Source: Gracilimonas sp. (GTDB lineage Bacteria > Bacteroidota > Rhodothermia > Balneolales > Balneolaceae). From it: a stretch of 64,000 nucleotides of DNA. Positions within the stretch are counted from its first letter, which is position 1. Each line of letters opens with the position of its first letter. The translations under genes were made by a program, and so were the position numbers. The stretch spans positions 372,001 to 436,000 of the forward strand of contig NZ_JAVJQO010000004.1 in NCBI RefSeq assembly GCF_040218225.1, in the 5' to 3' direction. Below are positions 4,390-17,127 of the stretch, one piece after another. The notes under the pieces were generated by a model. The model saw nothing but the letters and a program-made list of their open reading frames with translations. It did no database searches and was not told where the DNA came from.

Positions 4390-4459
4390 CTAATCAGTAA
4401 GAGCCACTTCAATTAGATTCCTTACAATTGAACTTGAAATCTAATCAGTCAAGAGTCAC
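4390..4459. repeat. Imperfect direct repeat pair between the transposase unit and carB
   Basis: CTAATCAGT followed by AAGAGCCAC at 4390-4407 is almost repeated at 4441-4459, with one base inserted and one changed. The 120 bp from 4380 to 4499 has no plausible gene, and no remnant of a CarB C-terminal domain is readable here. Function unknown. Confidence 0.4.
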
Positions 4460-4499
4460 GAATCAGAGTGATCAAGTAAGGTTACATTACCCAGGCAGC

Positions 4500-7328
4500 C
4501 TACTTGGATAGGTATAAGCTTTTGAACTCGTATGGTTTTTTGAAGTGGTCATCGTTGAAGTCTTTGGCGAAGTAGATGCTTTCTCCAGTTGACTTCATCT
4601 CAGGCCCCAGCTCTTTTTTCACTTCAGGGAATTTATCGAAAGGGAATACCGGCTCTTTGATGGCCCAGTTTTCCAGTTTTGAAGTCAGGTCGAATTCCTT
4701 GAGCTTAGCTCCCAGCATCACTTTTACACCGATTGCCGCTTCTGGTCGCTGTGTAGCTTTAGCCAGGAACGGAATGGTTCGGGTTGTTCTTGGATTCGCC
4801 TCCAGCACATACACTTTGTCATCTTTGACGGCATATTGCACATTCAGGAAGCCGAGAATTTCCATGTTCTCCGCTATCTTAAGCTGATGGTCTTCTATCG
4901 TCTTGATGATCTCATCGCTTAGCGAATAAGGTGGTAGCACGGCTGTGGAATCTCCTGAGTGAACACCGGCCGGCTCAATATGCTGCATAATCCCGGCTAT
5001 GTGAAGCTGATCGCCATCATAAACAGAGTCCACATCTACCTCTATGGCATGTTCCAGGTATTTATCAATCAGGAAGGCGTTTTCGGGGTGAGTTTTCAAA
5101 ATATTTGCAACATATTTACGCAGCTCTTCCTCTTTCACGGCGATTCGCATTCCCTGTCCGCCGAGCACATAACTTGGTCGAATCAGAACCGGGTAACCGA
5201 TTCTTCCGGCAATTTTTACTGCCTCTTCAACTTCTCTTGCCGTGCCATATTCCGGAAAGGGGATGTCGAGTTTCTTCAGAAACTTGGAGAATTCTCCACG
5301 GTCTTCGGCAAAATCAATCATTCCAAAATCGGTTCCGAAGATCTTTATGCCTTCTTCCACAAAACGCTTTCCAAGCTTAAGGGCTGTTTGTCCACCTACC
5401 TGAAGAATCACTCCTTCCGGTTTTTCATGGTCAATGATATCCAACACGCGCTCCCAATAAACCGGTTCAAAGTAGAGCTTATCCGCAAAATCGAAGTCCG
5501 TAGAAACCGTCTCGGGATTACAATTCACCATGATGGCTTCATACCCCATTTCTTTGGTTGCCAGCACCGCATGTGTACAGGAGTAGTCGAATTCAATCCC
5601 TTGTCCAATTCGGTTTGGGCCGCTTCCCAGAATCAATACTTTTTTCTTATCCGTGACTTCGCTTTCGTTCTCCCCCTCATATGCAGAATAGTAATAAGGC
5701 GTTTGTGCCGGGAACTCTGCTGCACAGGTATCTACCATCTTAAAGGATGGAGTTATACCGAGCTCTTTTCGTCGATCCCGGACTTTCTTATCGTCTACCT
5801 TTTCGCCGCTTTTGCTAAGCAGGTACGCGATCTGCGAATCAGAGAAGCCTGCTTGTTTCAGCTCAAAGAAATCTTCTTTAGTGATCTCCTTCAGGTTTTG
5901 GCCTTCGGTACGGTTTTCAAGGGAAACCATATATCGGATTTGTTGCAAGAACCAGGGATCTACTTTTGTGATATCTGCAATTTCTTCTACTGATGCACCT
6001 AGCTTAAAAGCGTTTCGAATCTGCATAGAACGATCCCAATACGGCTTCAGCAAACGCTCTCGTACTGTCTTTCGATCAAATTCTTCGTAGCCATCAGCCC
6101 CGAGACCATCCCGGCCTACTTCCAGTGATTGCCAGGCTTTGTTCAGCGCTTCCGGAAAGTTTCGCCCAATTGACATCACTTCACCCACAGCTTTCATCTG
6201 GGTTGATAGCTCTTCATCCACACCAGGGAATTTATCAAAGTTGAATCGGGGTATTTTACATACCACATAATCTATACTTGGTTCAAAGCATGCCGAGGTA
6301 GTTCCCGTAATCTGATTTTTTAGTTCATCCAATGTATAGCCGACTGCCAGCTTGGTGGCTACTTTTGCAATCGGGTATCCAGTCGCTTTTGACGCCAATG
6401 CTGATGAGCGACTCACCCGAGGGTTGATCTCAATCGCCACCAGCCGGTCTGACCCCGGCTCCATCGCGAACTGCACATTACAGCCACCGGCAAACGTCCC
6501 GATCGAACGCATCATCTTGATCGCAGAATCACGCATATGCTGCAGTTGCTTATCCGTCAGGGTTTGGGTTGGAGCCACCGTCACAGAATCTCCGGTATGT
6601 ACGCCCATCGGATCCATATTCTCGATAGAACAAATGATAATCACGTTGTCATTGGCATCACGAAGAAGCTCCAATTCGTATTCCTTCCAGCCAAAAATGG
6701 ATTCTTCAATAAGCACCTGATGAACCGGACTTAACTCTAATCCGCGAAGTACTTTTCGTTCAAATTCATCTTCATTCCAAACAATACCACCTCCGGCGCC
6801 CCCCATGGTAAATGAAGGTCGAATCACAATGGGCAAACCGCCCAGCTCTTCAACAATTTCTTTCGCATCCAGTAGGGATTGAGCGGTACGGCTTCGACAC
6901 TGCTCAATTCCAATTTCTTCCATTTTATCCCGGAAAAGCTGCCGATCTTCCGTCAGCTCTACCGCATCAATATCTACACCAATAATCTGGATATCATTTT
7001 CTTTCCAGAAGTTCTCTTTTTCCAAATCCCGGCAGAGGTTCAACCCCGTCTGACCACCCATAGTTGGCAGTACTGCGTCCGGTTTTTCTTTGGCCACAAT
7101 TTCCCTGATCGAATCCGTAGTCATGGGAAGCATATACACTGCATCCGCCATAATAGGATCGGTCATAATGGTAGCCGGATTTGAATTGATAAGTACAATC
7201 TCGTAGCCTTCTTCCTGCAGCGAGCGGCAAGCTTGAGATCCAGAGTAATCAAATTCACAGGCCTGACCAATTACAATAGGTCCGGAGCCAATAATCAGAA
7301 TTTTGTTGATGTCGTCGCGTCTGGGCAT
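4500..7328 (-). CDS. carB: Carbamoyl-phosphate synthase large subunit, lacking the C-terminal allosteric domain
   Basis: Makes carbamoyl phosphate from bicarbonate, ATP and ammonia passed from CarA, feeding arginine and pyrimidine synthesis. Two ATP-grasp halves are present. The first runs from the N-terminus (KILIIGSGPIVIGQA) with RPSFTMGGAGGG and EINPRVSRSSAL. The second begins near residue 560 (VLILGSGPNRIGQG) with RPSYVLGGQGM and EANPRTTRT. The protein is 942 residues against about 1,070 in E. coli and stops soon after the second half (FDKFPEV, KSTGESIYFAKD). The MGS-like domain that binds UMP and ornithine in E. coli is absent. The end looks like a clean domain loss, not a frameshift. 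It lies 93 bp downstream of carA on the same strand. Confidence 0.96.
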   Translation of the reverse strand: MPRRDDINKILIIGSGPIVIGQACEFDYSGSQACRSLQEEGYEIVLINSNPATIMTDPIMADAVYMLPMTTDSIREIVAKEKPDAVLPTMGGQTGLNLCRDLEKENFWKENDIQIIGVDIDAVELTEDRQLFRDKMEEIGIEQCRSRTAQSLLDAKEIVEELGGLPIVIRPSFTMGGAGGGIVWNEDEFERKVLRGLELSPVHQVLIEESIFGWKEYELELLRDANDNVIIICSIENMDPMGVHTGDSVTVAPTQTLTDKQLQHMRDSAIKMMRSIGTFAGGCNVQFAMEPGSDRLVAIEINPRVSRSSALASKATGYPIAKVATKLAVGYTLDELKNQITGTTSACFEPSIDYVVCKIPRFNFDKFPGVDEELSTQMKAVGEVMSIGRNFPEALNKAWQSLEVGRDGLGADGYEEFDRKTVRERLLKPYWDRSMQIRNAFKLGASVEEIADITKVDPWFLQQIRYMVSLENRTEGQNLKEITKEDFFELKQAGFSDSQIAYLLSKSGEKVDDKKVRDRRKELGITPSFKMVDTCAAEFPAQTPYYYSAYEGENESEVTDKKKVLILGSGPNRIGQGIEFDYSCTHAVLATKEMGYEAIMVNCNPETVSTDFDFADKLYFEPVYWERVLDIIDHEKPEGVILQVGGQTALKLGKRFVEEGIKIFGTDFGMIDFAEDRGEFSKFLKKLDIPFPEYGTAREVEEAVKIAGRIGYPVLIRPSYVLGGQGMRIAVKEEELRKYVANILKTHPENAFLIDKYLEHAIEVDVDSVYDGDQLHIAGIMQHIEPAGVHSGDSTAVLPPYSLSDEIIKTIEDHQLKIAENMEILGFLNVQYAVKDDKVYVLEANPRTTRTIPFLAKATQRPEAAIGVKVMLGAKLKEFDLTSKLENWAIKEPVFPFDKFPEVKKELGPEMKSTGESIYFAKDFNDDHFKKPYEFKSLYLSK

Positions 7329-14367: not shown

Positions 14368-14796
14368 ATGACCGACTACTCCGATATTATTTACTTGATG
14401 GCAGCGATGCTGCTTTTTTCTCTGATGTCCACCAACATATCCAAAAGCTTCCTGGCTGCTTCAAATAGTATGGTCACTGCCGGAACTGAAAACCGATCCA
14501 TCGCCCTTGCTCAGGACGAAATTGAACAGGTAAAACTGCTGAGCCGGGATAAAGAGAATCATTTAAAAGATGGACACAGCGATTACATATTCGCTGGCTA
14601 TCCCAAAAACAAAACCAATGTATATGGTTCTGAGAACCAGTATGAAGAAACCTTTCGGATTGAAGCTGACTCTGAGCTAATCCAAGAAACCGACCCTCTT
14701 CTAAACCGATACCTGGTTACGGTTAGGGTGACCAATGCCGTCAAGGATTATAACTCTGAAGCTACACTTGTGTTCATTAAATCCTTTGAGAGATGA
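14368..14796 (+). CDS. Pilin-like membrane-anchored protein (first of trio)
   Basis: One N-terminal hydrophobic helix (residues 7-30, IIYLMAAMLLFSLMSTNISK) is followed by a heptad-like run (ALAQDEIEQVKLLSRD) and a small soluble domain ending VTNAVKDYNSEATLVF. This layout resembles minor pseudopilins of the PilV/GspI kind. There is no charged leader with Gly followed by Glu+5, so a normal prepilin-peptidase site is missing. The stop overlaps the next ATG by 4 bp, so the genes are translationally coupled. Function is inferred from shape and neighbours only. Confidence 0.55.
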   Translation: MTDYSDIIYLMAAMLLFSLMSTNISKSFLAASNSMVTAGTENRSIALAQDEIEQVKLLSRDKENHLKDGHSDYIFAGYPKNKTNVYGSENQYEETFRIEADSELIQETDPLLNRYLVTVRVTNAVKDYNSEATLVFIKSFER

Positions 14797-15392
14797 ACCT
14801 GAATATCTTTACTAGTTTCGTGATAGGCGGGCTCTTTCTGCTCACACTGCTGGCTTTCAATAGCTTTGTTTTTAACTCGGCTGTTGAAACAACGACCGGG
14901 GTTATGACTGAGAATTCTTTTGACACTATTGTTGAAATCCTTCAGAATGATATAAACAGGCTAGGATATAACACCGGCACAGCCGACAATATTATGACTA
15001 TGACGGAAGTGACTTTCGAATTTAAGGGCGATATATACGATGAAGACGGAATTGGTACCGTAGCCGACTACAACACCGTAGAATGGCATCTCACCTCCAA
15101 CAAAGCAACTTCAACTGAAAACCCTGATGATTATACCCTCATCCGCACTTTTGATCCTGATCCTTTTTTTAGCGGAGACAGTGAAGAACTCACCTTCAAC
15201 GTCACTCACCTGGAATTTAAATATCTGGATGCCAACGGTAGCGAAACAAACGATCCCGAGCTTGTAAAACAAATTTCTATTGAACTGGTACATGAGTCAA
15301 AAAACTCTTACTACGTCAGCACCAAGGGGGCTGAAAAATATTACCGCTCGGTGTGGAACCGAACCATTGTACCTAACAACCTAACTTTTTAA
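14793..15392 (+). CDS. Pilin-like protein resembling PilW (second of trio)
   Basis: A hydrophobic N-terminal helix (residues 5-30, IFTSFVIGGLFLLTLLAFNS) is followed by TIVEILQNDINRLGYNTG. This is close to the PilW pattern in which a -DIxRxGY- motif follows the first helix. The rest is a beta-rich extracytoplasmic domain of about 140 residues. There is no recognisable prepilin cleavage site. The 4-bp overlap upstream and the 12-bp gap downstream put it in a tight operon. Confidence 0.55.
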   Translation: MNLNIFTSFVIGGLFLLTLLAFNSFVFNSAVETTTGVMTENSFDTIVEILQNDINRLGYNTGTADNIMTMTEVTFEFKGDIYDEDGIGTVADYNTVEWHLTSNKATSTENPDDYTLIRTFDPDPFFSGDSEELTFNVTHLEFKYLDANGSETNDPELVKQISIELVHESKNSYYVSTKGAEKYYRSVWNRTIVPNNLTF

Positions 15393-15404
15393 GAACCTGC
15401 TTTT

Positions 15405-16700
15405 ATGGGACGATCCATGTTAATTTTAGTGGCCGGGTTTATGATTATCGCCGGAGTTATCACAAACTCAAATAATCGCCGAGCTATGATGCTGCCGCAG
15501 AAATCTGCGCAGAACATCAGCGAAGCACAGGCTAAAAATTCGGCCGTAAGTATGATCAAAATGGGCATCGAGAAAATCACCATTGATAATGAATGGGATG
15601 GAGAGATTTCGGACGTGAGTTCTCTGCCGGGTTCAGCTTACCTCGAACTGTACGACTCGGAAAGCTCCTCTTATCCCGAAGGAATCTCTATAGGGCAAGG
15701 TGGCTGGGACGGGTATAAAGTACTTCTTTACAGCGAGGCTACCTACGGAAACTACACCGCCATTGTTGAGGTAATGATGCGTCGGGATTCCTATTCCAAG
15801 TATTCCTATTTCTCGGATGAAGAGCGAAGCAGTTTGTTAGGCAACTCAGAAATCTACTTCTACTCATCGGATGTCATTTCCGGCCCTATTCACACCAACG
15901 GTACATTTAGAATATCCGGAACACCCACCTTTTTTGGACACGTTTCGAGCCCAAATATGTGGCAGAGCCGAAGTTTATTTGGCGACAACCCCGATTTCCG
16001 AAGCACCACGGATTTTAACTCCCCGGAACGCCCACTCCCAACTCAAGCCCAGATTAATGACCTAAAGAGTGCAGCCACCGCAACCGGCTTAACTTTTACC
16101 AATCAAATTGACGTGACTTTTCAAGATGACGGCTCCGTTTCTATTTCAGAGTACGATGAAGCTGCGGAAGTTTGGTTACCGGCTCAGGAATATGAAGCAT
16201 CCGAACACAATGGGATTATTTCCACCACCAAAAAGGCTTTGGTTAAAGGAATGGTTGCCGGTCCATTAACCCTGCACTCTGAAGATGACATCGAGATTAT
16301 GGGTGACCTCGAATATTACGACGATCCACGGAATAATGAGGTGTCTGCTGACCTGCTTGGTTTGGTGAGTGAAAAAGACGTAATTCTTGACAGAGAAGCT
16401 CATCGGTATAAAGGTTCCGCGGATGTAAGCCTTCACGCCTCCATTATGGCCATGGGGGCATCTTTTCGTGTTGAGAACTACAGCTCGGGCGGCTACAGAG
16501 GTAAAATAAATTTACTGGGCGGCATCATTCAAAAGAACCGGGGGCCGGTTGGCACCTTTGGCGGATTATTCGGAGACACCGGATTCTCAAAAAATTATGA
16601 GTATGACACCCGTCTCCGATATTCAATCCCTCCATACTTCCCACGCGAAAGTGTGTTCTCCATATTATCCTGGAAAGACCGTGTAATCGTTAAAAACTAA
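15405..16700 (+). CDS. PilX/DUF4900-like exported protein (third of trio)
   Basis: An N-terminal hydrophobic helix (SMLILVAGFMIIAGVITNS) and a helical stalk (SEAQAKNSAVSMIKMGIEKI) look like PilX. They are followed by a large domain of about 370 residues. The phrase GPIHTNGTFRISGTPTFFG near residue 165 is typical of DUF4900-type proteins in Bacteroidota/Balneolota and of PilX-like pilus-tip proteins. The last part carries glycine- and tyrosine-rich sequence (SSGGYRGKINLLGG). Its likely place is the cell envelope or a pilus tip. No pilus assembly ATPase or secretin lies in the window. Confidence 0.55.
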   Translation: MGRSMLILVAGFMIIAGVITNSNNRRAMMLPQKSAQNISEAQAKNSAVSMIKMGIEKITIDNEWDGEISDVSSLPGSAYLELYDSESSSYPEGISIGQGGWDGYKVLLYSEATYGNYTAIVEVMMRRDSYSKYSYFSDEERSSLLGNSEIYFYSSDVISGPIHTNGTFRISGTPTFFGHVSSPNMWQSRSLFGDNPDFRSTTDFNSPERPLPTQAQINDLKSAATATGLTFTNQIDVTFQDDGSVSISEYDEAAEVWLPAQEYEASEHNGIISTTKKALVKGMVAGPLTLHSEDDIEIMGDLEYYDDPRNNEVSADLLGLVSEKDVILDREAHRYKGSADVSLHASIMAMGASFRVENYSSGGYRGKINLLGGIIQKNRGPVGTFGGLFGDTGFSKNYEYDTRLRYSIPPYFPRESVFSILSWKDRVIVKN

Positions 16701-16728
16701 CCTTTCTTATCAAATAAACCTCGCTTTC

Positions 16729-17127
16729 ATGTATAAAAAAAGCATCAAATTTATTCTTGTACTGCTTCTATCCATCTCTGGTTTTGTCGCGGCAACAGCT
16801 CAAACCACCGTTACTTTTAACCTTGATATGAGAAGAGCCCTGCAGGACAGTCTCTTCATCCCTTCAACCGACAAAGTAGTTCTGGTGGGAGATGTTCGGC
16901 CTTTGAATGAAATCAATAAAATTTACCTCCGGGATGAAGAACCCATCGACAGCATTTTTACAGCCGAGGTAACATTCAGGCGTTACCTGGATGGAGATCT
17001 GGTTACTTACAATTTTGTGCTGGATACCCAATCTAAAAAGTTTGAAGAACCCCGATCGCGTTCACTCAGGTTATCCGGTAATGAGATAATTTTACCACCC
17101 CTGCAATTTGGAGCAACTGCCTGGTAA
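16729..17127 (+). CDS. Small exported protein with E-set/starch-binding-like fold
   Basis: A signal peptide ends near TAQ, and about 105 residues follow. The pattern TVTFNLDMRRAL, then KVVLVGDVRPLNE, then DSIFTAEVTFRRYLDGDLVTYNFVL, resembles the immunoglobulin-like modules of CBM48/E-set proteins in which VTFxVDM and YxF mark the strands. It is 28 bp behind the PilX-like gene and ends the operon with a strong terminator. Whether it works with the trio is unknown. Confidence 0.5.
   Translation: MYKKSIKFILVLLLSISGFVAATAQTTVTFNLDMRRALQDSLFIPSTDKVVLVGDVRPLNEINKIYLRDEEPIDSIFTAEVTFRRYLDGDLVTYNFVLDTQSKKFEEPRSRSLRLSGNEIILPPLQFGATAW

Follow-up and report, generated by a model that had tools for sequence, protein, structure and literature searches.

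What could three adjoining genes with the layouts of the minor pilins PilV, PilW and PilX build, when none of them encodes the usual charged leader and no pilus machinery lies around them? The window (the whole stretch of DNA analysed, 64,000 nt, G000:C4:372001-436000) comes from a 3.54-Mb genome (G000) that is 98.6% complete, and it contains the three genes (A, B and C) followed by a fourth (D). Rechecking showed the coordinates and spacing of the original prediction to be exact:

14368-14796, + strand: gene A, 142 aa, starts MTDYSDIIYLMAAMLLF; putative leaderless minor pilin, GspI/XcpV-like by predicted fold, in PilV-like position
14793-15392, + strand: gene B, 199 aa, starts MNLNIFTSFVIGGLFLL; putative leaderless minor pilin, GspJ/XcpW-like by predicted fold, in PilW-like position
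15405-16700, + strand: gene C, 431 aa, starts MGRSMLILVAGFMIIAG; DUF4900 protein in GspK/PilX position
16729-17127, + strand: gene D, 132 aa; small and exported, with a signal peptide of Sec type recognised by eye

A and B overlap by 4 bp (ATGA), B and C are separated by 12 bp, and the genes flanking A-D in the window are unrelated. No pilus motor, secretin or peptidase was found inside the 64,000-nt window, as the original prediction had it. Purifying selection on A, B and C is strong (dN/dS 0.050, 0.043 and 0.039, respectively, against the close relative G007), which marks them as real genes. Protein C matches DUF4900 (PF16241) at 30.7 bits (cut-off 29.4, E 4e-7), and the same family is matched at E 0.01 or better by 18 of 18 C homologues. 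A, B and D have no Pfam or NCBIfam family match, and a pilin match is absent from both collections for A, B and C. Profile searches against PDB sequences with C, B, D and the major pilin (see below) gave nothing significant; the major pilin reached PilA5 and a geopilin at E 0.3-0.6, which carries no evidential value. A first contig search with protein C as query returned no relatives. The sole match in family searches with D was to CBM_20 (E 0.038, in one of 18 D proteins), and the earlier label of an E-set protein receives no support from these searches. By eye, the signal peptide of D is an ordinary one of Sec type.

The start of each protein was surveyed in 309 distinct sequences (151 pilins and 44 A, 50 B and 64 C homologues). 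The start codon lies at the conserved position, right at the hydrophobic helix, in all 309. A possible leader was scored where an upstream start at least 5 codons away was accompanied by a basic residue and by Gly or Ala at -1, and none of the 309 pilins and tip proteins had one. Five or fewer open codons precede the start in 211 of the 309 proteins and in 112 of the 151 pilins, some with a stop directly before the Met. For the window genes, the in-frame upstream sequence holds no start codon for A, one open codon for B and four open codons for C. At a distance of 4-16 bases ahead of the conserved start, a Shine-Dalgarno core is present in 57% of the pilin genes, 56% of the C genes and 44% of the B genes, versus 1-5% of control stretches, with a weaker excess in A (25% versus 7%), and the conserved region of the pilins begins exactly at the start Met. 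From upstream frames and ribosome-binding site positions, the idea that correcting the start would uncover a leader was rejected for all families; for A-C, where the discovery of a canonical leader in this way had been named as grounds for abandoning the original prediction, none was found. Since neither a cleavable leader nor a signal peptide is present in A-C, the earlier suggestion that they are processed by Sec only has to be dropped.

The residues that follow the start Met were then compared between families. Position 5 of the major pilin (Met = 1) is Gln in 146 of 151 sequences and Glu in 4, with one Glu in the genome under study (MGKRELLL). A homologues carry Asp or Glu at Met+5 in 42 of 44 cases, which is position 6 counting Met and position 5 if Met is removed, and C homologues start with M-G-[RK] in 60 of 64. 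Of the window proteins, B and C are without an acidic residue near position 5, and A has Asp at Met+5. With Gly as residue 2, pilins and C could lose Met, as could about 30 of 44 A homologues with a permissive residue there; in B homologues, residue 2 is Asn in 41 of 50. A rule by which Met removal always yields Glu5 was rejected as inconsistent across families, and the prevalence of Asn in B means that no uniform N-terminus produced by Met removal is supported. A-C look like already-mature type IV pilins, oriented with the N-terminus inside and uncut save for a possible loss of Met1.

The enzyme that would cut a leader is likewise not detected. The A24 peptidase domain (PF01478) was found in neither the genome under study nor 54 of 58 relatives, using a profile that was positive in 12 of 14 control genomes, and nothing above cut-off was found for the two-domain peptidase (A24_N_bact, PF06750). 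No canonical prepilin N-terminus (N_methyl, PF07963) was matched in the genome under study, and canonical prepilins hidden in the genome were rejected on that ground. Across 296 genomes of the phylum, 101 carry a leaderless pilin, with A24 present in 12 of these and none detected in 89. As a positive control, four genomes with a second, different platform (G004, G013, G021 and G031) carry leadered prepilins with GFTLVE-type sites and an adjoining A24 gene. Canonical prepilin matches with no A24 match in the same assembly were also seen on G057:C255 (L193, L200) and G011:C14 (L194), contigs that are possibly contamination in these MAGs.

An absent motor was rejected: whether type IV pilus genes occur elsewhere had been posed as a check, and a full motor, with platform and secretin, sits on another contig of the same genome (C8). 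The one platform protein of the genome (C8:407652-408623) has two T2SSF domains (96.8 bits), and around it (locus L070), on one strand, lie genes for a secretin, PilO, a PilM/N-like fusion, PilT, a CRP-like cyclic-nucleotide protein, PilB and PilC. PilB (L070 7826-9601) matches T2SSE at E 3e-99 and TIGR02538 at 440.6 bits, under the equivalog cut-off of 675.65, and PilT matches TIGR01420 at 313.4 bits (E 2e-93), slightly under the cut-off of 319.1; scores below curated cut-offs are as expected for a divergent clade. The secretin (98 bits) and PilO (29.2 bits) both score above cut-off, and the PilM/N fusion, which has no family match, was named by position and size. The small cyclic-nucleotide-binding protein, in which no DNA-binding domain was matched, lies between PilB and PilT in Balneolota (L070 7240-7746, L048 7053-7562, L050 10352-10894) and may regulate the motor.

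Major pilins were identified with a profile (A2) built from the first genes of relatives' operons (MGQQQLLLVILVTIIVGIATVVAIN), which found three in the genome under study, starting MGQQQLLLVILVT... or MGKRELLL...:

C8:421955-422338: major pilin (profile A2), about 13 kb from the motor
C8:421450-421797: major pilin (profile A2), about 13 kb from the motor
C2:132129-132473: major pilin (profile A2)

At one locus of this genome (L173), a Gln5 pilin (MGQQQLLL) and a Lys-Arg-Glu5 pilin (MGKRELLL) are paired, at 4427-4798 beside 4887-5339, and MANKELLL or MANKEIII versions occur in other Balneolota; two co-assembling pilins of differing charge at position 5 are possible.

The motor operon of this genome is without A-B-C genes of its own. 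A second A-B-C-D cassette is located at C8:678 kb, and the genome has two B genes only, one per cassette. The window cassette and that at C8:678 kb are thus the only candidates found to serve the motor. Directly upstream of the second cassette, a giant exported protein of 2,524 aa (L003 1416-8990) displays lectin-like and repeat regions and, by eye, a sorting end of T9SS type at its C-terminus. A cluster of small exported proteins, together with a protein with weak matches to WxL-interacting proteins (E 0.002), follows many trios, including the second cassette (L003 12317-16195; G000:C8, about 680-684 kb) and those of L034, L037-L046, L052, L057, L061, L062 and L065; these recurrent proteins may be secreted partners of the tip.

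Gene neighbourhoods in relatives connect the trio to the motor. In Balneolota, Kryptonia, Ignavibacteria and KSB1, homologues lie inside or beside one operon with the plan major pilins, PilC, PilB, (A-B-C), PilT, PilM/N, PilO and secretin. A-B-C is found within the pil operon in L048, L050, L054, L064, L104, L150, L154, L171, L182, L183 and L192, and A, B and in some cases C lie between PilB and PilT in 20 loci, some of which share a genome. L048 reads pilin(s), PilC, PilB, A, CRP-like protein, B, C, PilT, PilM/N, PilO and secretin; L050 has the same order except that A and the CRP-like gene are swapped, and there D follows C. The plan is repeated in Kryptonia (L150, L154), in Ignavibacteria (L163, with the trio upstream) and in other families of the phylum (L182, L183, L192). 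In three KSB1 loci (L143, L145, L156), A follows the secretin, with B or C as far as the locus reaches. The A-B-C block, which the original prediction had asked to see conserved, is linked across the order. In Balneolota, each cassette has one D where C is 412-500 aa long and none where C is 339-398 aa. Pilin and platform go together in the 58 relatives, most of whose genomes are drafts: 39 have the two, 17 have neither, one has the pilin only and one the platform only (Fisher p 1.6e-12, a value that ignores relatedness, the genome counts not being independent). A platform without a detected B occurs in five relatives, four of which have the pilin. A second, distant set of three genes (436-504 aa, 137-139 aa and 163-175 aa), at L048 15996-18313 and L047 15361-17828, likewise opens straight on hydrophobic helices (MGKYAMILV, MSTSQTLLS, MAFQPDLVV); it resembles a further trio without leaders.

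Structures of A and B were predicted with AlphaFold2 using 31 and 34 homologues (mean pLDDT 86.6 and 88.3, respectively), and in both models a single long helix from residue 3 is followed by an antiparallel sheet. The B model matches XcpW (6utu_E) by Foldseek at E 1.8e-4 with probability 1.00, and re-alignment with VIA-align placed ten structures of pilins or pseudopilins (XcpW, GspJ, EpsJ, TTHA1219) at Z 10.7-11.9, with the next unrelated row at 3.2; its alignment with 5bw0_G (Z 11.6, rmsd 3.6, 140 residues) indicates a GspJ/XcpW fold. No significant match to the A model was returned by Foldseek alone, and its placing comes from VIA-align structural re-alignment, in which XcpV (5bw0_B; Z 9.0, rmsd 2.6, 83 residues) and GspI (3ci0_I; Z 8.3) point to a GspI/XcpV fold. 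Profiles of the pilins and tip proteins reach known pilins below threshold only (GspH at E 0.004 and ComGD at E 0.0045, one member each). By predicted fold, A and B would thus belong to the pilin family as proteins of the GspI and GspJ type. Their description as PilV- and PilW-like was right in that they appear pilin-like, and has to be modified in that the folds are nearer to GspI and GspJ than strictly to PilV and PilW, sets that are related to each other. A-B-C corresponds to GspI-J-K in gene order, and the predicted fold agrees for two of the three (A and B). C has no Glu5, and from its GspK/PilX position in the fixed A-B-C order it is likely the tip cap. A tip complex capped by a subunit without Glu5 is described in a review (PMC10191384).

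From these results, A, B and C are very probably the minor pilins that initiate the tip in a type IV pilus-like machine, all of whose pilins are made without a leader, and the original reading of the trio as a pilus tip is most likely right, given the predicted folds of A and B and the operon location in relatives. It is also probable, with somewhat less assurance, that prepilin processing was lost clade-wide (in Balneolota, other Rhodothermia, Kryptonia, Ignavibacteria and KSB1), that the start codon sets the N-terminus, with or without Met removal, and that interchangeable tip cassettes feed a common motor. In such a machine, the Met-initiated helix would serve as an uncleaved membrane anchor, inserted via Sec/YidC with the N-terminus in the cytoplasm, and the pilins would never be cut, or would be trimmed of no more than the initiator Met when a small residue follows it, the subunit having from the outset the form that PilD normally yields. 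A-B-C would assemble as a tip complex, start the filament and stay at its tip, capped by C; D, which goes with long C within the order, may bind the head of C. PilB and PilC would add major pilin below the tip and PilT would retract the filament, with the A-B-C-D cassette of the window as one of two alternative tip cassettes serving one motor.

The main competitor, which we consider possible and on balance unlikely, is a T2SS-like pseudopilus that exports proteins, with A-B-C as strict pseudopilins I-J-K and the major "pilin" as a short piston. It draws on the nearest folds of A and B, which are T2SS pseudopilins, on a platform that scores GspF models above PilC models, and on the frequent adjacency of the cassettes to clusters of secreted proteins. 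Against this, the operon contains a PilT-family ATPase (TIGR01420, 313 bits), PilB scores its own model above that of GspE, and the secretin scores PilQ above GspD. The retraction ATPase PilT is a hallmark of type IVa pili, and T2SS are not known to have a PilT-type ATPase. A decaying duplicate with no role is conceivable for the window cassette in that it lies away from the motor and that another exists at C8:678 kb; intact frames throughout, dN/dS of 0.04-0.05, a motor operon without the trio and a single B gene per cassette make this extremely improbable.

Leaderless tip pilins also have to be set against two readings that question the proteins themselves. A leader translated from a non-standard upstream start and cut by an unrecognised peptidase would be compatible with the absence of A24 and A24_N, if the peptidase were divergent or of another, unfamiliar family; five or fewer open codons upstream of Met in 112 of the 151 pilins, ribosome-binding sites placed at the start Met and a conserved region that begins exactly there argue against it, and we hold it to be very improbable. 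Just as extremely improbable as decay is that A-D are unrelated membrane-anchored surface proteins that resemble pilins in length only: this agrees with A, B and C matching no pilin family of Pfam or NCBIfam, and is opposed by the pilin folds predicted for A and B and by the recurrence, in distant groups, of a place between PilB and PilT.

If A, B and C are leaderless tip pilins, the purpose of leader cleavage and N-methylation could be tested in nature, as filaments here would have to assemble with both missing. These proteins are missed by annotation pipelines and pilin finders keyed to the leader, and Pfam and NCBIfam leave the pilin, A and B unnamed. In the open-licence literature, no paper was found that deals with pilins made without a leader, with DUF4900 or with the MGQQQL motif, and prior reports may exist.

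Type IVa pili comprise PilB, PilT, PilC, PilM, PilN, PilO, PilQ and the minor pilins PilH-K/PilV-W-X. The machine described here resembles them in that a single operon of relatives unites the two ATPases, platform, M/N, O and secretin with major pilins and a set of minor ones, and a pilin fold is predicted for two of its minor subunits. It differs in that there is no prepilin leader or detectable prepilin peptidase, so that prepilins are not processed and N-methylation linked to the peptidase is probably absent, in that the major pilin has Gln and rarely Glu as its fifth residue (Met included), and in that PilM and PilN appear fused and motor proteins score under known-subfamily cut-offs. With GspI-J-K of the T2SS (XcpV, XcpW, XcpX), the trio shares the predicted folds of I and J, the I-J-K gene order and a third, largest subunit without Glu5, whereas the leader is missing, C has a DUF4900 head and a PilT-type ATPase is present. 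The MSHA locus similarly has no peptidase gene of its own and is believed to rely on one from another part of the genome (PMC6668835); the present genome, in contrast, yielded no A24 match anywhere, and its pilins lack a leader that could be cut. The putative T2SS of Cytophaga hutchinsonii is a T4P/T2SS-like cluster from Bacteroidota that groups with T4aP in published trees (PMC6668835), and it differs in encoding an A24 peptidase, CHU_3197 (PMC5553014), where none was detected here. In Melioribacter roseus, pilT, pilQ, pilB and pilC were reported, pilA and pilD were "not found", and the set was taken as probably incomplete (PMC3534657); Melioribacteraceae loci carry a leaderless pilin beside pilC, and such a pilin would explain both the missing pilA and the absent pilD of M. 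roseus. According to reviews, a class III signal peptide is "invariably" present on type IV pilins (PMC10191384), and a prepilin peptidase is "invariably found" in type IV filament machines (PMC4471445). A large clade with mature-residue starts and a missing peptidase would break both statements for what is a very widespread kind of bacterial machine, and we read the machine described here as a type IV filament machine in a leaderless version.
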